This document shows positions 17,335 through 45,975 of a stretch of 45,975 bases of DNA, piece by piece. The translations under genes and the position numbers were made by a program. The notes beneath the pieces are model-generated. The model was not told the DNA's origin. It did not search any database and saw only the letters and a list, made by a program, of their open reading frames with translations. Every line of letters starts with the position of its first letter. Positions within the stretch are counted from its first letter, which is position 1. This DNA comes from Rhodospirillaceae bacterium (GTDB taxonomy: Bacteria > Pseudomonadota > Alphaproteobacteria > GCA-2731375), in assembly GCA_018660265.1 (NCBI GenBank), contig JABJKS010000098.1, forward strand, positions 1 to 45,975, read 5' to 3'.

Positions 17335-17714
17335 GTCTAAACTCCCCGACGACCCGGTTTCAATTAATGCGCTCACGGCCCAAAAATGATGAGGCCAGAG
17401 GTGGATAGATTCCTATCCGATCCCAGCATCTTATCGCACTCAAGCATGGCTTCAAGGGGATGTCATCGATCCGCGACGATCCAAGGGGTGAGGGAAAGGC
17501 CCTTGTGCGGTGGCTCCTTTACGTACTAAGATTTTAGGATAGTAATCTGTGAGGCAATGGCGTTAGCAGATGCTCTCCAGTTTTTTTTCCGGACTAGCAA
17601 CCGGCGATATTTCGATGTGGGTCTCGCCCAGGGATTCGCGATAGGGCCTGACGGACGCGAGCGGCGGGCGATATCATATAGTAGTGTTCTTCGAGAGTGG
17701 ACAACCAAGTAACG
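17335..17714. other. Divergent intergenic region, no gene seen
   Basis: This 380-bp spacer separates the nitrilase-family gene from the first amide ABC operon and must hold both promoters. I see an AT-rich patch with a T8 run near 17,581 but no convincing palindrome, sigma-54 or sigma-70 pair. Confidence 0.4.
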
Positions 17715-18599
17715 ATGGACATAGTAGTCAAACTGATTTTCGATATCCTCGCGTTCTCTTCGATCATGGTTTTGGTTGTCGGTGGCTTGGCTGTCATTGC
17801 AAGTTTAATGGGCATCTTCAATCTTGCACATGGTGAGTTCGTGCTGTTGGGTGCCTACACGGTTTATTTGTTCCGGGAGTGGGGCCTGCCCGAATGGTCA
17901 GGCATGCTGGCCGCGCCATTCGTCGTTGCGGCAGTCGGCTATATCATTGAATTGATCGTCATCAGGCGTCTCTACACCGCGCCCATAATTGCCATGTTGG
18001 CAACCTATGCCATCGGTTTGATTATCCGCGAGATTGTTCGTGGTCTGATCGGCGGACAGTACTTTGCCATTGATGAACCGATCGTCGGTTCCTTCGAGGT
18101 TATCGGCCTGAATTTTTCAATCTGGCGCACGGTTATTATTTTCGTGGCAATTACGGTGATGGCGGCGTGTTATCTATTTCTGGTACGGACAAGTTTCGGC
18201 CTGCAAATCCGAGGTTCATTGGAAAATCCGGCGTTGGCCAGGGCCTCCGGCGTTTCGACGACCCGTTTGTACTCTTTTACCTTCGCCTTTGGTGCTGCCT
18301 TGGCCGGACTGGCCGGCGCGCTGATGGTGCCGTTATTTTCATTGTCCGCCGACCTGGGCGTACGTTTCCTGGTTCAGGCGTTCCTTTCCGTTATGCTGGG
18401 TGGCATCGGCAGCTTTGAAGGGCCGGTCCTGGGCAGCGCCATCCTGGGTGCCATGGTACCTGGCTTTCAATGGCTGCGGGAAATACCCTACGTTGTGGAT
18501 TTTGTCAGTCCAGTTTTCGCCGAGGTTCTGGTTTTTGTAACCGCCCTCATTATCGTCAAACTTCGGCCGCAAGGCCTCATTCGCCAAGGGAGATCATAG
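17715..18599 (+). CDS. ABC transporter permease, LivH/UrtB type (amide transporter 1)
   Basis: A 294-aa inner-membrane permease of the branched-chain amino acid/urea uptake family, with about eight hydrophobic helices. Family motifs include GLAVIASLMGIFNLAHGEFVLLGAY, the LivH GxxNLAHG(D/E) signature, ARASGVSTTRLYSFTFAFGAALAGLAGALMVP and MLGGIGSFEGPVLGSAILG. I use the ATG at 17715; a GTG at 17697 would add six residues and neither has a strong ribosome site. It is the first gene of permease, binding protein, permease, ATPase, ATPase and amidase, so the imported ligand is probably the amidase substrate (inference). Confidence 0.88.
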   Translation: MDIVVKLIFDILAFSSIMVLVVGGLAVIASLMGIFNLAHGEFVLLGAYTVYLFREWGLPEWSGMLAAPFVVAAVGYIIELIVIRRLYTAPIIAMLATYAIGLIIREIVRGLIGGQYFAIDEPIVGSFEVIGLNFSIWRTVIIFVAITVMAACYLFLVRTSFGLQIRGSLENPALARASGVSTTRLYSFTFAFGAALAGLAGALMVPLFSLSADLGVRFLVQAFLSVMLGGIGSFEGPVLGSAILGAMVPGFQWLREIPYVVDFVSPVFAEVLVFVTALIIVKLRPQGLIRQGRS

Positions 18600-18600
18600 A

Positions 18601-19839
18601 ATGGCATTTATAAAGAAAGACAAACAACCCGGCGACGGCATGTCCCGTCGTTCGTTCCTTACGGGAACAAGTGCATTGGCCGCAGCTGGTTGGACAGCGG
18701 TTGCCGGCGGTTGGGTCTTACGACCGAATTGGGCCCATGCAGCCGGCCCGATCAAGATGGGCATCGCGACCGACATCACCGGTGCGATCGCGCCGAGCGG
18801 TAACGCCAATTGGCAAACAGCACAGTTCACGGTCAAGCAGATCAACGATGCCGGCGGCATCCTGGGCCGGCCAATCGAACTGCTACTTGAAGACACGGCC
18901 TCCGACCCGGGCAAAGCGGTGAGCAACGTGCGTCGGCTTATTCAAAAGAATAACGTGGATGTTGTCCTTGGCGGCATTACCTCCGCCATGCGCGAAGCCA
19001 TTAAGAACCCGATCGTGCGCCGGGGCAAAACCCTCTACATCTATCCCCAGCTCTATGAAGGCCAGGAATGTACGCCGCATCTCTATTGCACTGGCCCAAC
19101 GCCGGCCCAGCAATGCGCGGAATTGCTGCCCTATTTGATCAAGCAGGGCTACAAGCGGTTCGCCATGCCATCGGCCAACTATCGCTGGCCACAGCTGTTG
19201 AACAAATGGGCCCGTAAGGTGATCGAGGCCAATGGCGCCGAAGTGGTGTTCGAGGAATATTACCCCCTCGATCAATTGGAATATTCTGCGACAGTTGCCA
19301 AGATCATGAAGGAAAAGGTGGATCACGTCTTCAACACCGTAATTCCGCCAGGGCTGCAAGCTTTCACCAAACAACTCTACGAAGCCGGCTATCAGGACAC
19401 CGGCGGCACCCAGTCTTGCGTCTATTATGACGAAAACTCCGTCAATTACGTGGCGGCGCGCGAACTGGAAGGTACTTACAGTTGCCTGGACTACTACCAC
19501 ACCGTCGACGATGCCTTTAGCCAGAAACTGGTGGCCGATTACAACAAGATGTTCCCGAACACCAAATATCTGTTCACCGCAGGTAGCGCGTCGACGGGTA
19601 TGTACCGTGGCATCAAGCTCTACGAACAGGCCGTCATCAAGACCAATGGCAATCTGGACCGTGAAGCAGTATCCGCAGCAATGGACAGCGCCTCGATCAC
19701 GAACGGACCGGGCGGTGCGGCAAGGATGGTGCCAGGCACCGGGCATGCCGCCATGAACATGTACGTTGCGCAATCCAAGGGTGGGAAGTGGAATATCATT
19801 TCCAAGGCCGACATGGTCGCCCCGGACGAATGCGGCTAG
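18601..19839 (+). CDS. ABC transporter substrate-binding protein, amide/urea type, Tat-exported (transporter 1)
   Basis: A 412-aa periplasmic binding protein of the type-1 AmiC/UrtA group. A twin-arginine signal (SRRSFLTGTSALAAAGW) precedes cleavage near the AHA-A site at about residue 49. The mature part begins IKMGIATDITGAIAP and contains INDAGGILGRPIELLLED, LYIYPQLYEGQECTPHLYCTGPTPAQQ and EEYYPLDQLEYSATVAKIMKEK. The LYEGxxC and YPLD segments are those of amide/urea binders rather than leucine binders. GGGAG 8 bases upstream supports the ATG at 18601, which directly follows the permease stop. Unusually it lies between the two permease genes, and a 13-bp hairpin follows it. Confidence 0.88.
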   Translation: MAFIKKDKQPGDGMSRRSFLTGTSALAAAGWTAVAGGWVLRPNWAHAAGPIKMGIATDITGAIAPSGNANWQTAQFTVKQINDAGGILGRPIELLLEDTASDPGKAVSNVRRLIQKNNVDVVLGGITSAMREAIKNPIVRRGKTLYIYPQLYEGQECTPHLYCTGPTPAQQCAELLPYLIKQGYKRFAMPSANYRWPQLLNKWARKVIEANGAEVVFEEYYPLDQLEYSATVAKIMKEKVDHVFNTVIPPGLQAFTKQLYEAGYQDTGGTQSCVYYDENSVNYVAARELEGTYSCLDYYHTVDDAFSQKLVADYNKMFPNTKYLFTAGSASTGMYRGIKLYEQAVIKTNGNLDREAVSAAMDSASITNGPGGAARMVPGTGHAAMNMYVAQSKGGKWNIISKADMVAPDECG

Positions 19840-19850
19840 CAGGTGAGACA

Positions 19851-19880
19851 GGTAGTCGCGCGGACAACCGCGCGGCTACC
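19851..19880 (+). terminator. Strong hairpin downstream of binding protein gene 1
   Basis: A 13-bp stem (one G-U pair) with an ACAA loop lies 12 bp after the binding protein stop, followed about 12 nt later by a TTTTT patch. Inside an operon this fits an attenuator or 3'-end stabiliser that keeps binding protein levels above permease and ATPase levels. Confidence 0.65.
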
Positions 19881-19930
19881 GCGCCGCCTGATTTTTATAC
19901 CTTTTGAATTTATTCCGGTAATCGAAAAAT

Positions 19931-20998
19931 ATGTCCGACGCCGCCAATAGTATCCGAAAACCGGCGCGACGGCCCGTGCGTGTCATTCCTATTGTTGAAG
20001 TGGTTCTGCTTGTTCTTTTGATTACCGTTCCATTTTTCGTCAGTGATTTTTTGACCATTATCGTGACCCGCATGATCATTCTGGGCATGTTGGCCATCAG
20101 TTTCGATCTCTGTTGGGGCTATTCCGGAATTATGACATTCGGTCAGGCGCTGTTCTTCGGCATGTCTGGATACGTCGTGGCGCTGCTGGCCAACAAGGCG
20201 GGATTTGTACAGTTATGGGGGGTTATTCCCCTCGGCATGCTGGTCGGGCTGGTGGTTTCCTTCCTGATCGCGTGGTTCCTGTTACTGGGCAAGCACCGAC
20301 CGGAAATCATCTTTGTCGCCCTGGGCACGTTGACAGCATCCTATGCCGCTGAACGTCTGGTGGCGGGTTGGGAATGGGTCGGTGCCGGCAACGGCATGTC
20401 GATCTTTGATTTTCTTTTGATCGGCGATTACGAGCTTGAACCAGGCATTGTGTTCTATTACATCGCTGCCGCTATCCTGGTTATTGTTTATCTGGCCAGC
20501 CGGTATCTGGTACGCTCGCAGTTCGGGCTGGTCCTGGCCGGCATGCGCCAGAACGAAGATCGCCTGGCCTTCTTCGGCTACCGGATCCAGGTCTTCAAGG
20601 CTTTGGTGTTCTGCTTCGCCGGTATGATCGCCGGACTTTCGGGTGCCCTTTACACCTATCATGAAGGCTTTGTCGGCCCCGGCAGCATGGGCATGGCGTT
20701 GTCGACTTATGCGGTACTGTACGGACTTTTTGGCGGTACCGGCACCTTACTCGGCCCCTTAATCGGCGTCGTAGCGATTGAAAGCATCAGCTTCGTACTT
20801 TCTGATCTGGACGAAGTAAAAAGTTTCTGGCCGATCATTCTGGGCGTGATCATGTTGATCGTTGTTGCCTACAAACCGACTGGGTTGATGGGCTTTTTTG
20901 TCTCCCAGAGAGAACGGATCGGTACTTTCGGTGTCGCCGAAAACAAACGCGGCAAAGCCTCCCGTCAAGTTAAGGGAGGCGATGATGGCACTGCTTGA
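19931..20998 (+). CDS. ABC transporter permease, LivM/UrtC type (amide transporter 1)
   Basis: A 355-aa inner-membrane permease pairing with the LivH-type subunit. The family core is visible: AISFDLCWGYSGIMTFGQALFFGMSGYV, then VALGTLTASYAAERLVAGWEWVGAGNG, then GMRQNEDRLAFFGYRIQVFKALVFCFAGMIAGLSGALYTYHEGFVGPG and GGTGTLLGPLIGVVAIE. The C-terminal cytosolic tail after residue 320 is basic. The initiation region has little Shine-Dalgarno signal. Its 3' end overlaps the following ATPase gene by 14 bp. Confidence 0.9.
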   Translation: MSDAANSIRKPARRPVRVIPIVEVVLLVLLITVPFFVSDFLTIIVTRMIILGMLAISFDLCWGYSGIMTFGQALFFGMSGYVVALLANKAGFVQLWGVIPLGMLVGLVVSFLIAWFLLLGKHRPEIIFVALGTLTASYAAERLVAGWEWVGAGNGMSIFDFLLIGDYELEPGIVFYYIAAAILVIVYLASRYLVRSQFGLVLAGMRQNEDRLAFFGYRIQVFKALVFCFAGMIAGLSGALYTYHEGFVGPGSMGMALSTYAVLYGLFGGTGTLLGPLIGVVAIESISFVLSDLDEVKSFWPIILGVIMLIVVAYKPTGLMGFFVSQRERIGTFGVAENKRGKASRQVKGGDDGTA

Positions 20999-21719
20999 AG
21001 TCCAGGGAGTTGGCAAAGTTTTTGGCCCCTTGCGGGCGCTTGACGGCGTTGATGTTTCGGTTCGCGCCAACACCTTTCACGGCCTGATCGGCCCCAACGG
21101 ATCAGGCAAGAGCACCTTGTTGAAAGCTATCGCCGGCGATCATTTCGCAACAGAGGGCACGATCAACTTCGACGGCGATGACATTACCATGCTGCGCCCT
21201 TTTGAGCGTGCGCGCCTGGGCCTCAGTTTGAAATTTCAGATCACCGCCGTGCTGCCGGAATTGTCACCCTATGACAATCTTCTTCTCGCCTCGCAGGCAG
21301 AACGCTCGGTCTGGTCCCTGATCCGTTCAGGTAGCAAGGGCGAATTGCACGATGAAATCATGGACAGCCTGGAGCGCTTCAGCCTGGCGGACAACGCCGA
21401 CGAACTGGCGGCCAATCTAAGCCATGGCCAGCAGCAATGGCTTGAGATTTCCATGTCCCTGATACGCAAACCGAAAATGCTTCTTCTTGATGAACCAACG
21501 GGTGGCATGAGCCCCGAGGAGCGGCGGGCGACAGGTGAATTGTTGCTGCCCATCAAAGCCCATTGCGCGTTGGTTATCGTCGAACATGATCTCGATTTCA
21601 TCAAGGATATCTGTGATCACCTAACGGTGCTTGATCAAGGTCAGGTACTGGACGACGGCACCGTGAGCGAGATCGAGGCATCCACCAAGGTGCAGGAGGT
21701 TTACACGACCCGTGTCTGA
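20985..21719 (+). CDS. ABC transporter ATPase, LivG/UrtD type (amide transporter 1)
   Basis: A 244-aa ATPase. Walker A is GPNGSGKS at 36-43, the signature is LSHGQQQW, Walker B is MLLLDEPTGGMSPEE, and the switch His follows in VIVEHDLDFI. The LivG-type insertion FERARLGLSLKFQITAVLPELSPYDNL is present. I chose the ATG at 20985, 5 bases after AGGGAGG, over the adjacent ATG at 20982. It overlaps the LivM-type gene upstream, and its final codons overlap the GTG start of the second ATPase. Confidence 0.92.
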   Translation: MALLEVQGVGKVFGPLRALDGVDVSVRANTFHGLIGPNGSGKSTLLKAIAGDHFATEGTINFDGDDITMLRPFERARLGLSLKFQITAVLPELSPYDNLLLASQAERSVWSLIRSGSKGELHDEIMDSLERFSLADNADELAANLSHGQQQWLEISMSLIRKPKMLLLDEPTGGMSPEERRATGELLLPIKAHCALVIVEHDLDFIKDICDHLTVLDQGQVLDDGTVSEIEASTKVQEVYTTRV

Positions 21720-22416
21720 TGGCGATGAAATTCTCAATGTCCAGGATCTCAGCTCCGGCTACGGCCGCAGCCAGGTGCTGTTCGGTGTCAGCTTGTCCAG
21801 TCCCCGCACCGGCGCGGTTGCGATGTTAGGCCGTAATGGCGCCGGCAAGACCACACTGCTGAAAACCCTGATCGGAGAAATCAAGCCAATGGATGGCTTG
21901 ATAGGGTTTGATCATATCGAGACGCAGAACGAAAATACCGAAAAACGCGTGCGTCGGGGCATGGGTTATGTGCCCCAGGAACAGGCGGTGTTCACGACGC
22001 TTACAGTGCGCGAAAACCTTGCCCTTGGCGCTATCTCGCAAAAAGACAAAAGCGGTATCGACATGGTATTGGATTTCTTTCCCAAGCTTGGCGAACGCCT
22101 GGAGCAACAGGCAGGCACTCTATCGGGTGGTGAACGCAAAATGCTGGCTATAGGAAGGGCCTTATTGAGTAAGCCCAAGCTGCTTTTGCTGGATGAACCG
22201 ACAGAGGGCGTCTGGATCGGTGTGATCGAGGAAATCGCCGAGCGGCTGGAGCTGCTGGCCAAGGAAATCTCAATGATTATCGTTGAACAGCATGTTGAAC
22301 TGGCATTGAGAGTTGCCGATTACGCCTACGTCATGGATCGGGGCGAAATCGCACTGGAAGGCACGTCGGAAAACATCAAGGACGACCCCCAACTGCTGCG
22401 CTATCTCGCGCCGTAG
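21712..22416 (+). CDS. ABC transporter ATPase, LivF/UrtE type (amide transporter 1)
   Basis: A 234-aa ATPase with Walker A GRNGAGKT at 40-47, signature LSGGERKMLAIGRALL, Walker B LLLLDEPTEGVW and switch VEQHVELAL. It begins at a GTG overlapping the stop of the previous ATPase by 8 bp, with AGGAGG 13 bases upstream. The DEPTEG sequence is the UrtE-like form rather than the LivF DEPSLGL form. With the preceding four genes it completes a five-part transporter; the amidase gene follows after 25 bp. Confidence 0.9.
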   Translation: MSDGDEILNVQDLSSGYGRSQVLFGVSLSSPRTGAVAMLGRNGAGKTTLLKTLIGEIKPMDGLIGFDHIETQNENTEKRVRRGMGYVPQEQAVFTTLTVRENLALGAISQKDKSGIDMVLDFFPKLGERLEQQAGTLSGGERKMLAIGRALLSKPKLLLLDEPTEGVWIGVIEEIAERLELLAKEISMIIVEQHVELALRVADYAYVMDRGEIALEGTSENIKDDPQLLRYLAP

Positions 22417-22441
22417 GATTGAAACACAGTGGAGGCAGAAA

Positions 22442-23962
22442 ATGGCCGTACAAGTCCCTACCCCGGAACAAATTTTGGATCTTGCTGATGACATAGGTCT
22501 GGACCTGACTGATGCAGACGTCCAATCTTATATCGATTTATTGAGAGGCACGGTCGACGCTTACAACGTCGTTGATGCCATGCCGGACAACCTGCCGCAG
22601 GTGCATTATCCGCGCACACCAGGCTATCGCCCCCGTGCAGAAGAAAACCCCTACAATGCCTGGTACGTCAAGACCGAGGTGAAGGGTGCTTCACGCGGCA
22701 GGCTGAAGGGCAAGACCGTCGTCCTGAAGGATAACGTGATGCTGGCCGGTGTGCCTATGATGAACGGTGCCGCGACCCTCGAAGGCTATGTGCCGGAGAT
22801 CGATGCCACCGTCGCGACGCGCCTGCTCGATGCCGGCGCAACCATCGTCGGCAAAGCCCATTGCGAGAATTTTTGCCTCTCGGGCGGCAGTCATACCAAC
22901 GCCACGGGCCCGGTTCATAATCCCCACAAGATGGGTTATTCGGCAGGTGGTTCATCGTCTGGCAGCGCGGCGCTGTTGGCGGCGGGCGAGGTCGACATGG
23001 CGATTGGCGGCGATCAAGGCGGCTCTATCCGCATGCCCGCGTCGTTTTGCGGTGTATACGGCATGAAAGCGACCCATGGTCTGGTGCCTTATACCGGCAT
23101 CATGCCGATTGAGGTCTATGTGGATCATACCGGCCCGATGACCAACAGTGTGGCCGATAACGCCCTGATGCTGGAAGTCATTGCCGGCGAGGACGGCTAT
23201 GACCCGCGTCAGTACAACGTCAAAACCCAGCGTTATACCCAGGCCCTGCAGGGCAAAAAGGGTGTCAAGGGCATGAAGATCGCCATCGTCAAGGAAGGCT
23301 TCATGCAGGAGAACGGGGAAGCCGACGTCAACACCAAGGTCCGGGCGGCGGCGAAAAAGCTGCAGAGCATGGGCGCAACGGTCAAGGAAGTCTCGATCCC
23401 GATGCATCTGCTCGGCGGGGCCTTATGGATGCCGATTGGTATCGAGGGTTTGACCCAGACCATGATGTATGGTGACGGCTATGGCGTCAGCCGGCCCGAT
23501 CTTTACGTCACCTCTCTGATGGACTTCCATCGCAATTGGCGGAACCGGGCGAACGAGATGTCCGAAACCACCAAACTGTTCACTATGTTCGGCACCTATA
23601 TCCGCAAATATTATGGCAGCCGCTACTATGGCAAGGCGATGAATATCACCCGGCTTTTGACCGCGGCATATGATGCGGTGCTGGAAGATTACGATTTGCT
23701 GTTGATGCCGACGACTGTGATGAAGGCGACACCGCTGCCCGCACCGGATGCCAGCCGCGAGGAATATGTGCAACGGGCTTTGGAGATGCTCGCCAATACT
23801 GCGCCATTCGACATCACCCATCACCCGGCCATGGCCATTCCCTGCGGCATGTCGAAGGGATTACCGGTAAGCATGATGCTGGTCGGTAAGCATTTCAATG
23901 AATCTACAATATATCGGGCGGCCCATGGCTTTGAGCAGGGGACAAACTGGAAAAAGATGTAA
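22442..23962 (+). CDS. Amidase, amidase-signature family (enantioselective amidase type)
   Basis: A 506-aa cytosolic amidase hydrolysing R-CO-NH2 to acid plus ammonia. The Ser-cisSer-Lys triad is visible: Lys96 in VVLKDNVML, Ser171 in AGGSSSGS and Ser195 in GGDQGGSIRMPA. From memory this numbering equals that of the Rhodococcus nitrile-pathway amidase, which also shares the extended N-terminus and GVPMMNGAATLEG. The ATG at 22442 follows GTGGAGG by 7 bases and lies 25 bp past the second ATPase gene, so import and hydrolysis are coupled in one operon. It is paralogous to the amidases at 35.9 and 37.4 kb. No nitrile hydratase gene is present in the window. Confidence 0.92.
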   Translation: MAVQVPTPEQILDLADDIGLDLTDADVQSYIDLLRGTVDAYNVVDAMPDNLPQVHYPRTPGYRPRAEENPYNAWYVKTEVKGASRGRLKGKTVVLKDNVMLAGVPMMNGAATLEGYVPEIDATVATRLLDAGATIVGKAHCENFCLSGGSHTNATGPVHNPHKMGYSAGGSSSGSAALLAAGEVDMAIGGDQGGSIRMPASFCGVYGMKATHGLVPYTGIMPIEVYVDHTGPMTNSVADNALMLEVIAGEDGYDPRQYNVKTQRYTQALQGKKGVKGMKIAIVKEGFMQENGEADVNTKVRAAAKKLQSMGATVKEVSIPMHLLGGALWMPIGIEGLTQTMMYGDGYGVSRPDLYVTSLMDFHRNWRNRANEMSETTKLFTMFGTYIRKYYGSRYYGKAMNITRLLTAAYDAVLEDYDLLLMPTTVMKATPLPAPDASREEYVQRALEMLANTAPFDITHHPAMAIPCGMSKGLPVSMMLVGKHFNESTIYRAAHGFEQGTNWKKM

Positions 23963-42362: not shown

Positions 42363-43607
42363 CTATTCAAGCGATATTTCGTAATGCTTGTTCGCGTTCG
42401 GTGTTTCCTTCAAGTTGCAAACCAGTTGTGTATCGGCTGGCTGAACCTGTGAAAACTTCTTCTTGATGATGTAAGTCTTATCCTGCAAATCGGCGATATA
42501 GACATCGCGGATCGCATGATGCGTCAGCGGATCGATAGCGCACTGACCGGACGGCATGTCATAAGTCTTACCGGATTCCATCACCTCGATCAGCTTCATA
42601 CGATCCAGGCTGCCGGCGGAACGCACCGCATCAGCCCAGATCATCATGCCCTCCCAGGTGAAGGCGGACAGTTCGGACAACAACGGAGTCTTGTCTGGAT
42701 AGCGTTTGTTGACCTTTGCCACCCATTCCTTGTTAGCCGGCGAGTCAATGGAGGGATAATAGCCATAGCAAGTGAGGATGCCGTTGGCGACTTCAGGCTT
42801 GAGGATCTCCAGCTCAGCACCGGCGGCACCAAAAGTGGTGGAGGCGATGGGGATTTCATTTTTCATGCCCGCTGCAGCCCATTGATTGTAAAAACCAAGA
42901 TGGCCCGTTCCCACAAGCACACTCATCACCATGTCCGGTTTGGCGCTTTGTATCTTGGAGATCGTCGGGCCAAAGTTGGTGACGTCGAGGGGGAAGAAAT
43001 CGGTCGAGACCACTTCGCCGCCATTTTGTTCCACATAGCGTTTCACCCAGGCTGCGGTGATCTGGCCATAGTTATAGTCAGCTGCGATGGTGTAAACTTT
43101 TTTGCCCCATAGCCCCATTGAGTACGGCACCAGCTTTTCAACAGTCTGCGCCGGCGTCGTGCCGAGGGATATTTCATTACGGTCACAGACACCGCCTTCA
43201 TACAAAGTGTTATAGAAATACAATGTCTTGTAACGATGCAGGATCGGTCGGATGGTTTCACGGCTGGCGGACGTAATGCCGCCCATGACCACGGAAGCTT
43301 TATCCTTGAGCGCCAATTGCGTCGCGAATTGCGAATACAGCGGCATTTTGGTCTGCGGGTCATACACCGCGCCTTTAAGTTTTTTACCCAGCAGGCCGCC
43401 TGCGGCGTTGATCTCTTCAATCGCCATCAACATGATCTGGTTCATGGGAATGCCGGCAAAATCGATAAAGCCGGACAGGTCGTGTAAACCACCAACGATG
43501 ATATCATCGCCGGCTTCCGCCGCGAACGGGATCATAGGCAGGGCGCTTGCCGCACCTATGGCAGCGGTCGTCTTAAGCATCGAACGTCTGGTAATGTCAC
43601 GCGTCAT
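42363..43607 (-). CDS. ABC transporter substrate-binding protein, amide/urea type, Tat-exported (transporter 2)
   Basis: A 414-aa periplasmic binding protein. A twin-arginine signal (TRRSMLKTTAAIGAASALP) is followed by cleavage near AEA at about residue 32. Mature features are IIVGGLHDLSGFIDFAGIPM, INAAGGLLGKKLKGAVYDPQTK, LYFYNTLYEGGVCDRNEISLGTTPAQ and STDFFPLDVTNFGPTISKIQ. LYEGGVCDRN is characteristic of the UrtA/amide-binding branch, and it pairs with UrtD/UrtE-like ATPases downstream. GGAG lies 8 bases before the ATG. It is the first gene of the minus-strand operon through to the amidases; the upstream promoter contains the GATGAC/GTCATC palindrome. Confidence 0.9.
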   Translation of the reverse strand: MTRDITRRSMLKTTAAIGAASALPMIPFAAEAGDDIIVGGLHDLSGFIDFAGIPMNQIMLMAIEEINAAGGLLGKKLKGAVYDPQTKMPLYSQFATQLALKDKASVVMGGITSASRETIRPILHRYKTLYFYNTLYEGGVCDRNEISLGTTPAQTVEKLVPYSMGLWGKKVYTIAADYNYGQITAAWVKRYVEQNGGEVVSTDFFPLDVTNFGPTISKIQSAKPDMVMSVLVGTGHLGFYNQWAAAGMKNEIPIASTTFGAAGAELEILKPEVANGILTCYGYYPSIDSPANKEWVAKVNKRYPDKTPLLSELSAFTWEGMMIWADAVRSAGSLDRMKLIEVMESGKTYDMPSGQCAIDPLTHHAIRDVYIADLQDKTYIIKKKFSQVQPADTQLVCNLKETPNANKHYEISLE

Positions 43608-43666
43608 AGTAAATTCTCCGGTTCTGTGAAGCCTCTAAACACAACGTACTCAGGAAATTATTATTG

Positions 43667-43681
43667 GATGACTATGTCATC
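43667..43681. promoter_or_regulatory. Palindrome upstream of amide transporter 2 operon
   Basis: GATGACTATGTCATC is a perfect 6-bp dyad with a 3-bp spacer, 60 bp upstream of the binding protein start. A second TATGTCA half-site lies 20 bp further on (from 43694). Operator for a local regulator is likely but unproven. Confidence 0.45.
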
Positions 43682-43775
43682 GACCCTCCGATTATGTCAC
43701 CTTTGCGCGTTTGTGCAAGAGGCCTCGTTAACTTCAGAAGTTCTGTTTGGCCGGATGAAACCGTTTTTGCCATCC

Positions 43776-43991
43776 TTAAATATAGAGCAGCATGCCGTTG
43801 AGTTCTTCGAACACCGGCAGCACCGAGTCCTTCAATGTGGTCTCGGAAATCGCCATGGTTCCCGACAGGGAATGCAGCACGCCGACCTTGATCGTATCTT
43901 CTGCCGCCTTGGCCGGTATGGCCATGGCGGCAACGCCGGCCGTCAGCGCGGCAGCAGCTAGGGTGTTAAGGGCATTACGTCTGGTTATCAT
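43776..43991 (-). pseudogene. urtA: Truncated urea-binding protein gene (urtA 5' remnant)
   Basis: A 71-codon frame encodes the first part of a urea ABC transporter binding protein: an N-terminal RR-containing signal ([19 protein letters not shown]), then [22 protein letters not shown], the UrtA hallmark, and VFEELNG. Family members are about 400 aa or more; similarity stops near residue 66 and the frame ends five codons later, so most of the gene is lost. GGAG precedes the ATG, and a sigma-54 promoter lies upstream. Sequence beyond the break is the promoter of the transporter 2 operon, suggesting deletion with fusion of its promoter to other sequence. Confidence 0.75.
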
Positions 43992-44035
43992 CAGTTTATC
44001 TCCATAGGGGGTTGTCTTGCACCACTCCTCTCAAC

Positions 44036-44050
44036 GCAAGGACCATGCCA
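44036..44050 (-). promoter_or_regulatory. Sigma-54 (RpoN) promoter upstream of the urtA remnant
   Basis: Read on the minus strand, TGGCATGGTCCTTGC carries the -24 GG and -12 GC dinucleotides separated by exactly 10 bases and matches TGGCAC-N5-TTGC at all but one position. It ends 45 bp upstream of the urtA remnant start codon, a normal leader length. Urea transport genes are classic NtrC/RpoN targets. I found no clear NtrC enhancer site. Confidence 0.6.
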
Positions 44051-44101
44051 AATCCAAACCAAGCTGATGATTTTTCATAAGCGACTGATCTATATAGGGA
44101 A

Positions 44102-44177
44102 ATTTGGCATTACAGTGTAGGAGTCGCGACCAAACGAACTCGCACATTTTTTAAGCACGAATTTTCCAATGCCAAAT
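44102..44177. repeat. Inverted repeat with ATGCCAAAT boxes
   Basis: ATTTGGCATT (44102-44111) and AATGCCAAAT (44168-44177) form a perfect 10-bp inverted repeat 56 bp apart. A third ATGCCAAAT copy lies at 44045-44053, overlapping the sigma-54 element. They could be activator sites or ends of a small element; no target duplication is evident. Confidence 0.4.
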
Positions 44178-44349
44178 AATCAGGCGTTGTGCCGGTCTTT
44201 GAAGCGCCTGCCTCGCCGTCGCGTTTGGGCGGCATATCCTTGAGGGAAGTCAATAGAGGTTGGTCATGGTCCCTGCGGCATAACGCCCCAAGCCATCCCA
44301 AGTAAGGAGACTAAGAGATATCTATGGGGTAGAGAATAGGTCGATCAAA

Positions 44350-44727
44350 TCAGGAGCAACCATGAACCATAAACATCGTAAAGTTCTCCATCCTCGGACG
44401 CCGCTTCTTGCCAAGGTGTACAGTCGGCGGTTCGGCGATGTCCTGATCCAGGGTGTCCAGAATATCCCGCACCACCCGTGATGCCTTTGCCCGCTCCGGC
44501 GAGGTGATCGGCTCGTTACCGGGAACCCGCTGGGCTGGGTTCACATCCACCTTGATCAGGGAGGCATCGACCGAGAAAGCCTCGCCACCGACCAGACCTT
44601 CAACGATGCAGGTGCTCAATTTGGGCTGGGCCTTCATTATTTGGTCGGAGATGGCGTCCCTCAAAACAATGATTTGGGAACGCGTTGGATAAGAAAAGCC
44701 GCCGAGCAGGGAATGGCAGAAGCTCAA
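44350..44727 (-). pseudogene. Transposase fragment (IS5/IS1182-like)
   Basis: The frame contains AQPKLSTCIVEGLVGGEAFSVDASLIKVDVN and later a RAKASRVVRDILDTLDQD stretch, matching the middle of IS1182/IS5-type DDE transposases (the VDASLIKAD block). Neither the N-terminal domain nor the C-terminal catalytic core is present, and the final ~25 residues look unrelated. It is a decayed insertion sequence remnant; no terminal repeats were identified. Confidence 0.7.
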
Positions 44728-44844
44728 TACACTTTAGGTAATCTGAAGTAGTTTCGATCTGATCTGACACAGTCCCCCATGCCCCCGCCTTGGAGAAACG
44801 GTGACGGCGACCATAACCGAACCCAGGAGCGGTCTTCAGAGTCC

Positions 44845-45099
44845 TCAGGCAAGCAATGCTGCCTTAATGATGCGTTTAGCTGTCCCGACTGAAACACCCG
44901 CCTCCTCGGCGATCCTGCGGACGCTGAGGCCATCCCGCTTGGCCGCCAACACCTGATCCCGAACAGCGTCAGCGACGTTGGGCCGTCCCAGCGTTTTGCC
45001 TTCCGCCCTGGCCCGCGCCAGCCCAGCCTTAACCCTCTCCTGGATCATCGACCGTTCGAACTCAGCGAACACGCCCATCATTTGGAACATGGCTTTCCC
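44845..45099 (-). pseudogene. Serine resolvase C-terminal fragment
   Basis: This 81-residue frame is the end of a Tn3-type/Hin-like serine recombinase: AGKAMFQMMGVFAEFERSMIQERVKAGLARAR (the long E helix) followed by the helix-turn-helix SVRRIAEEAGVSVGTAKRIIKA. The N-terminal catalytic domain with the nucleophilic Ser is missing. Similarity extends a few codons upstream of the first ATG at 45090 up to about 45,099, where an in-frame stop and unrelated sequence begin, so the break point is there. Confidence 0.8.
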
Positions 45100-45101
45100 G
45101 G

Positions 45102-45975
45102 CTGCCTAACAACGTGCTGGAGCTGCTGAGAAAGGGGGGCAATTTCCTTGATCTCACCGGCATGAACCAGCGCCCTATCGGGCCGCAACCAGACCCAAGC
45201 CCCGAAAAGATCGAGGCACTGGTTGCGGAACAACAACAGTCTTCCAAGTCGCCGACGGCGTCCTCTACACCGTACACGTCGATGGGCGTGAACGGCCTTT
45301 TAAAGTCTCGCATAGCGCCACTAGAGTGGCTGATACCGGGGATGATCCCAAAGGGCAGCACGGTAAGTCTGGGCGGGACATCAAACGTAGGCAAGACGCG
45401 ATGGCTCGCCTCGCTCTGCGTATTACTGGCGACAGGGAAGACTGAGATGATGGGCCTACCTGTTGTTGAGGTTCCGGCCCGCATCCTCTGGGTTGCCAAC
45501 GAGGAGCGCGTCGATGACATTAGGCGTAGGTGTAAGGCTGTAGCCTTGCAGCACGGTCTCAAGGGCGGCTTGAATTGGGTGGTCAGAGGCAAGGATGAGG
45601 GGATGCTTCAGCTGGTCAGCCTCAACGAGAATGGCCAGCCTGAGCTGAATGCTGAGGCTATCGCCACCCTGGTGGCCGAGATCAGGAAGGCCGGGGCGGA
45701 TGCTTTCGTTATGGACCCCTATGTCACGATCTCCAACGCCGTCGATGAGAACAGCGCCGTCAGCGCCACCATGATCACCAAGGGTCTGAACATCGTGACC
45801 CAGATGACCGGGGCCGTCGCCATACATGCCCATCACACCCCAAAATCGAGGAATGATGACGGGGACTGGTATCGCGGCTCCAGCGATGCCTGGAGAGGCA
45901 GTGGGGCTATAGAAAGCCTTCCAGTATTGACCTCCTGTAACGCCAATCACTGTATTGCCAACCATCAAACCGTCG
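45102..45975 (+). CDS. RepA-like AAA (AAA_25) ATPase, partial at both ends
   Basis: An open plus-strand frame runs from about 45102 to the window end without a stop (291 codons). It contains WLIPGMIPKGSTVSLGGTSNVGKT near 80-105, a Walker A of GTSNVGKT, VANEERVDDIRRRCKAVALQHG, a Walker B-like ADAFVMDPY and IHAHHTPKSRNDDGDWYRGSSDAWRGSGA, the layout of hexameric RepA/AAA_25 helicase-like ATPases of phages, plasmids and integrative elements. The 5' end abuts the resolvase fragment at about 45,100, so the N-terminus is probably lost; the first in-frame ATG is 45162. After GSGAIES the sequence reads unusually, possibly a frameshift near the end. Confidence 0.7.
   Translation, partial: MPNNVLELLRKGGNFLDLTGMNQRPIGPQPDPSPEKIEALVAEQQQSSKSPTASSTPYTSMGVNGLLKSRIAPLEWLIPGMIPKGSTVSLGGTSNVGKTRWLASLCVLLATGKTEMMGLPVVEVPARILWVANEERVDDIRRRCKAVALQHGLKGGLNWVVRGKDEGMLQLVSLNENGQPELNAEAIATLVAEIRKAGADAFVMDPYVTISNAVDENSAVSATMITKGLNIVTQMTGAVAIHAHHTPKSRNDDGDWYRGSSDAWRGSGAIESLPVLTSCNANHCIANHQTV

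Follow-up and report, generated by a model that had tools for sequence, protein, structure and literature searches.

The minus strand of the window (the whole 45,975-nucleotide stretch that we analysed, which is the entire contig G000:C19) carries, read 5' to 3', a urtA control region and a urtA stub, followed by a seven-gene amide operon that runs from 43607 to 35874 (Table 1). The first gene of the operon encodes a substrate-binding protein, and downstream of it lie genes for permeases, ABC ATPases and amidases, two of each. The sequence-only reading of this DNA had correctly placed the next gene start after the stub at 43607. A second amide-type ABC transporter operon is present at 17697-23962, with an amidase identified by eye and a UrtA-like binding protein at 18601-19839.

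The stub is an open reading frame of 71 codons (43776-43991, minus strand). It keeps a ribosome site and a signal peptide, twin-arginine-like by eye, both where they had been described before. Its product gives a partial match to Peripla_BP_5 (33.2 bits, cut-off 27). It also matches the UrtA family model TIGR03407 (urea_ABC_UrtA), over residues 34-65 only and below the curated score (38.4 bits against a cut-off of 492.75); UrtA from the intact operon elsewhere in this genome scores 584.6 on the same model. The remnant is a fragment of the UrtA family and not a working member of it.

The reading frame is made up of urtA codons 1-58, an in-frame deletion of 180 bp, 12 further urtA codons and one foreign codon. 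With the intact urtA of the related species G005 as the reference, the 180-bp jump runs exactly between two copies of the 9-bp repeat TCGGTGCTG. Homology to urtA stops at 43782, and the stop codon of the frame (43776-43778) lies within junction DNA for which a blastn comparison with five loci gave no match. The earlier description, that the first 65 or so codons of urtA remain, was right about the start of the gene being kept. What follows the start is really two pieces, of 58 and 12 codons, around the deletion.

Table 1. Features of the urtA remnant and its flanks, with positions in the window and the evidence for each.
Feature	Position	Strand	Evidence
Serine recombinase C-terminal fragment	44845..45090	-	PF00239, phrog_125
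IS1182-like transposase fragment	44350..44727	-	tblastn to plasmids
Upstream NtrC-type dyad A CGCCTGATTATTTGGCA, 17 bp	44170..44186	-	Weight-matrix rank 3 of 45,958 window positions; 15/17 identical to G005
Upstream NtrC-type dyad B TGCTTAAAAAATGTGCG, 17 bp	44141..44157	-	Weight-matrix rank 1 of 45,958 window positions; 16/17 identical to G005
Sigma-54 core TGGCATGGTCCTTGC, TGGCAT-N5-TTGC	44036..44050	-	Same place in relatives; 15/15 identical to G005
Conserved 5' leader TGGTGCAAGACAACC... with ribosome site	43992..44024	-	Alignment and pattern; 31/33 identical to G005
urtA codons 1-58 (encoding the signal peptide and the beginning of the binding domain)	43818..43991	-	166/174 identical to G005; partial Peripla_BP_5, TIGR03407
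9-bp repeat TCGGTGCTG, site of the missing 180-bp in-frame urtA stretch	43818..43826	-	Comparison with G005 urtA
Second urtA piece, 12 residues, after the deletion	43782..43817	-	98% identity to G005 across 45 bp, repeat included
Junction DNA	43720..43781	-	Matches neither urtA nor the DNA upstream of the amide operon in relatives
Sigma-70-like promoter of the operon, TTGCAC-N16-CATAAT	43691..43718	-	Consensus and conservation
Substrate-binding protein gene, amide/urea-type ABC transporter operon	42363..43607	-	Peripla_BP_5 over cut-off; TIGR03669 and TIGR03407 below

On the other side of the remnant, upstream homology to G005 ends at 44236. The DNA from 44350 to 45975 is mobile debris and includes an AAA_25 primase/helicase gene that is cut at the contig end. 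The IS1182-like fragment has no Pfam or PHROG match; in tblastn it aligned to plasmids at 41-55% over 44-60% among the 6 records listed of 43, two of which are annotated as IS1182 and one as a transposase.

A urtA control region with a sigma-54 core and paired dyads

The sequence-only reading reported a sigma-54 promoter in front of the truncated urtA, and the promoter is indeed there. A GG-N10-GC core lies at the conserved position before the gene, and a core aligns at the same position in all 10 other urtA copies of the genus that have upstream sequence (the G009 copy, whose contig begins inside the gene, was left out). The motif by itself is within chance: the 46-kb window holds two matches against a shuffle mean of 0.47, and 7 of 100 shuffles reach two. 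The other match (19720-19734) is antisense inside a gene. We take the core as real because of its homologous position across the genus, which rules chance out. One base is unusual. Sigma-54 promoters have, by consensus though not invariably, an A or T after the -12 GC, and the remnant departs from this consensus with a G, where the 10 relatives carry A (nine) or T (one).

From the position of the core, transcription is predicted to start about 12 bases beyond it, at 44024-44025, in agreement with the 44024 proposed before. The conserved leader opens at this predicted start with TGGTGCAAGACAACC, which is identical in the window and the 10 other copies. A second exact copy of this sequence lies 245-258 bp upstream in six of the 10 intact loci with the leader (for example L004, positions 5116 and 5371), and the whole genome has three exact copies, all at urtA. 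A search of a collection of 84,980 species for the core and leader as one pattern matched 9 stretches. An Rfam scan of 43500-44700, with E values up to 1, matched the leader RNA to nothing.

Upstream of the core are two NtrC-type dyads, 29 bp apart, that the earlier reading did not mention. In intact urtA copies, two dyads of the form TGCCTA-N5-TAGGCA, first seen by eye, lie about 134 and 105 bp upstream of the core. We scored such sites with a symmetrised weight matrix made from 18 urtA sites in 9 copies, with the window and G005 excluded. At a threshold of 9.5, a spaced pair occurs once in the window, at the remnant. The same matrix, which holds urtA sites only, found pairs 29-30 bp apart before glnK-amtB in eight of 10 loci of one amtB type at 9.5 and in four of 10 at a threshold of 12; the lower value was adopted after weaker second sites had been noticed. 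The two glnK-amtB loci without a pair are shorter (2,961 and 3,031 bases, compared with 4,176). No spaced pair was found before the other type of amtB (0/10 loci) or in control loci (0/53, comprising 220,551 bases; with repeats removed, about 45 loci and 191,013 bases). At a threshold of 12, every pair in the DNA scanned is at a urtA or amtB locus, including one (L019) from a different genus of this family, and no pair arose in 300 block-shuffled windows. A search for the plain dyad, GCCTA-N5-TAGGC, was uninformative genome-wide, with 146 matches per strand against 253 for the reversed control, and the dyad claim therefore rests on the spaced pairs.

In seven of the eight paired glnK-amtB loci, the first site and a sigma-54-like box, CGGCACG-N-TTCTTGG, are 132-143 bp apart; the box ends in GG and not in the usual GC. 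The gene between the pair and amtB reads as PII in six loci, one of them checked by Pfam. Because the same pairs precede glnK-amtB, we infer that NtrC is the factor that binds the dyads. rpoN was found in 11 of 11 genomes of the genus, and one protein of this genome scores above the NtrC cut-off. With upstream sites paired as they are before glnK-amtB, the region upstream of the remnant looks like a whole NtrC-type control region.

Relationship of the remnant to other urtA copies

An intact urtABCDE-urease operon is present elsewhere in the genome, on contig C25. Its UrtA-E, UreC and UreG are above curated cut-offs, and its other urease genes were named by eye. The core, enhancers, leader and signal peptide of the remnant are homologous to those of this operon (80% identical over 220 bp), which, unlike the remnant, has the full gene set. 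DNA upstream of the C25 operon is common, by eye, to seven of nine other aligned copies but not to the remnant.

Among the copies compared, the closest match to the remnant is in a different species. Over 207 aligned columns, the remnant is 95.7% identical to the urtA of G005 and 80.2% identical to that of C25, and a tree of these columns places it as sister to G005 with support of 97/98. An AU test rejects a grouping of the remnant with C25 alone (p 9e-5). The test does not reject the remnant joined to both C25 and G006 (p 0.147), which leaves room for an older duplication on that side. In contrast to the remnant, the C25 urtA and rpoB each place the genome with G006 at 100/100. Of the 11 genomes, 8 yielded the rpoB domain; in the rpoB tree, the misplaced row of G004 (branch length 10, from a slice that is not comparable) was disregarded. 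The rpoB loci of this genome and G005 are 83.7% identical. Because the C25 urtA tracks rpoB and the remnant groups with G005, C25 is most likely the native copy, and the remnant most likely an import from, or an exchange with, the G005 lineage.

The amide operon has a distribution of its own. Close orthologs of its first gene (87-88% identity) are found in three of 10 other genomes of the genus, and none of the three (G009, G002 and G007) has urtA beside the operon in the available stretches, which extend about 2.4, 7.7 and 5.2 kb upstream of it, respectively. The remnant precedes the operon in one of the four genomes of the genus that have the operon. The sole match of remnant DNA to the amide loci of relatives is 33 bp long (82%, E 0.007) and lies 6.8 kb from the operon in L034; it is taken as chance. 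A search of the genome with the urt operon of G005 gave, beyond C25 and the remnant and with 40 of 84 candidates scored, only matches of 48-80 bases at 74-82%, and these short matches are to ATPase genes.

Between the core, dyads, leader and coding part, the remnant is only 58-79% identical to G005. The coding part is 95.4% identical and thus as well preserved as the control sites. We infer that selection on this copy as a urt gene lasted until recently, in which case retention of the promoter needs no present function. Conservation of the sites is best read as a record of the time before decay, not of retention since.

The interval between the remnant and the amide operon

The amide operon has its own promoter. 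A sigma-70-like sequence, TTGC[AG]C-N16-CATAAT, lies 109-115 bp upstream of the start codon in all four orthologous loci, the window included, and in the window it sits intact between the remnant and the first gene of the operon. Any nitrogen input would be an addition to this promoter.

From the predicted transcript start to 43607 is about 417 bases, and both are on the same strand. We searched for an intrinsic terminator between the remnant and the operon and rejected one: a scan of the minus strand from 43000 to 45975 for the intrinsic-terminator consensus found no terminator-like site. The fold of 43608-43790 is mildly stable (z -1.59). With no such site in between, read-through into the operon is possible. 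Rho might still act here, as the 168 untranslated bases before 43607 could permit Rho termination. In the three relatives, the operon has neither an NtrC-type site (the best score was 5.4) nor a sigma-54 core within 600 bp. The arrangement expected of promoter capture is present at the locus, with the control region and the operon on the same strand, no terminator-like site between them, and an operon that in relatives is without such control. By our own estimate, the chance of significant read-through into the amide operon is somewhat under one half, and the chance of selection for it is near one tenth.

Possible fates of the promoter

We postulate that an additional urtA came, together with its NtrC/sigma-54 control region, from a lineage near species G005 and was placed just upstream of the amide operon. 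A slippage-type deletion between the 9-bp repeats would account for the missing 180 bp, and further decay for the loss of everything after about codon 130, so that the enhancers, the core, the leader and a 71-codon stub would be left. The promoter would most likely still fire under nitrogen limitation, and part of the transcript might run into the amide operon, giving it a second, nitrogen-responsive promoter beside the sigma-70-like one. We lean modestly toward this account of a decayed import with a promoter that is still active and partial read-through into the operon. The G after the -12 GC, the operon's intact promoter, possible Rho termination and the short tree of 207 columns all weigh against it. 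Further, it is unlikely, though conceivable, that the sigma-54 switch of a dying xenolog has been handed to the resident amide operon, as a rewiring with both promoters in place.

Alternatively, the remnant could be inert. It would then be a recent gain that was recently broken, with a promoter that is unused or a transcript that is stopped (for example, by Rho), and the operon would depend on its own promoter. Conservation of that promoter in four of four loci, the presence of the remnant before the operon in just one genome of four, the changed base after the -12 GC and the adjoining mobile-element debris are all consistent with an inert remnant. However, relative to G005 the dyads, core and leader are preserved at nearly every base, and no terminator-like site lies before the operon. 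We regard inertness as a substantial possibility, a little short of probable.

At the other extreme, selection could be keeping the fragment for amide uptake under nitrogen control. The orientation and distance of the remnant, the lack of a terminator-like site and the lack of NtrC-type and sigma-54 sites near the operon in three of three relatives would fit with such a capture, and the physiology would probably match as well, since both systems would serve nitrogen scavenging. However, the eight differences from G005 in 174 coding bases are too few for a selection test, and the operon's own promoter is preserved. We consider true capture improbable.

We are slightly more doubtful still that the locus is an artifact of assembly, in which unrelated pieces of a metagenome were joined close to a contig end. 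The contig does end 2 kb beyond the remnant, in mobile DNA, and nine related records all come from metagenome assemblies, which makes the same origin probable for this genome. Against a chimera, the remnant is at least 4% different from every urtA compared, it is itself rearranged, and its G+C content (0.51-0.54) matches that of the left flank (0.52), although none of these is enough to exclude one. Lastly, the residue of a urt operon formerly resident at this locus, which the sequence-only reading implied, would explain the strand and order of the urtA start and is formally compatible with the grouping of the remnant with C25 and G006, but it is very improbable given that the native operon is intact on C25 and sits with G006 as rpoB does, that the remnant is sister to G005, and that the three relatives with the amide operon show no adjoining urtA.

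Pseudogene remnants whose promoter survives, and may read through into the operon beyond, are a known general kind. The locus resembles them in that a deletion leaves a promoter facing a neighbour; it differs in that this promoter appears to be of outside origin and the neighbouring operon retains one of its own. Our literature search found no paper on this locus, and we claim nothing wider from this. If the promoter works, the locus would show, as a natural snapshot, how a broken foreign gene can bring an operon into a new regulon; the control region, the scar of the deletion and the earlier promoter can all still be read. Otherwise, the remnant would be an ordinary recent pseudogene.

Among known systems, the closest to the remnant core are urtABC promoters of Alphaproteobacteria that depend on RpoN. 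For Bradyrhizobium sp. DOA9, the RpoN-dependent box TGGCATGGTTCTTGC is listed for urtA-B-C (PMC13207237). As listed there, the box equals the remnant core at all but one base and precedes the same gene. In contrast to the DOA9 listing, the gene behind the remnant core is a stub of 71 codons, and the first intact genes after it encode the amide-type transporter and amidases.

A firmer by-product of the analysis is the paired enhancer motif, which appears to be common to urtA and glnK-amtB in this uncultured, apparently marine alphaproteobacterial genus. The glnK-amtB pairs lie at about 780-840 in loci L113-L118, L120 and L121, on the amtB strand, and represent a candidate NtrC site of the genus.
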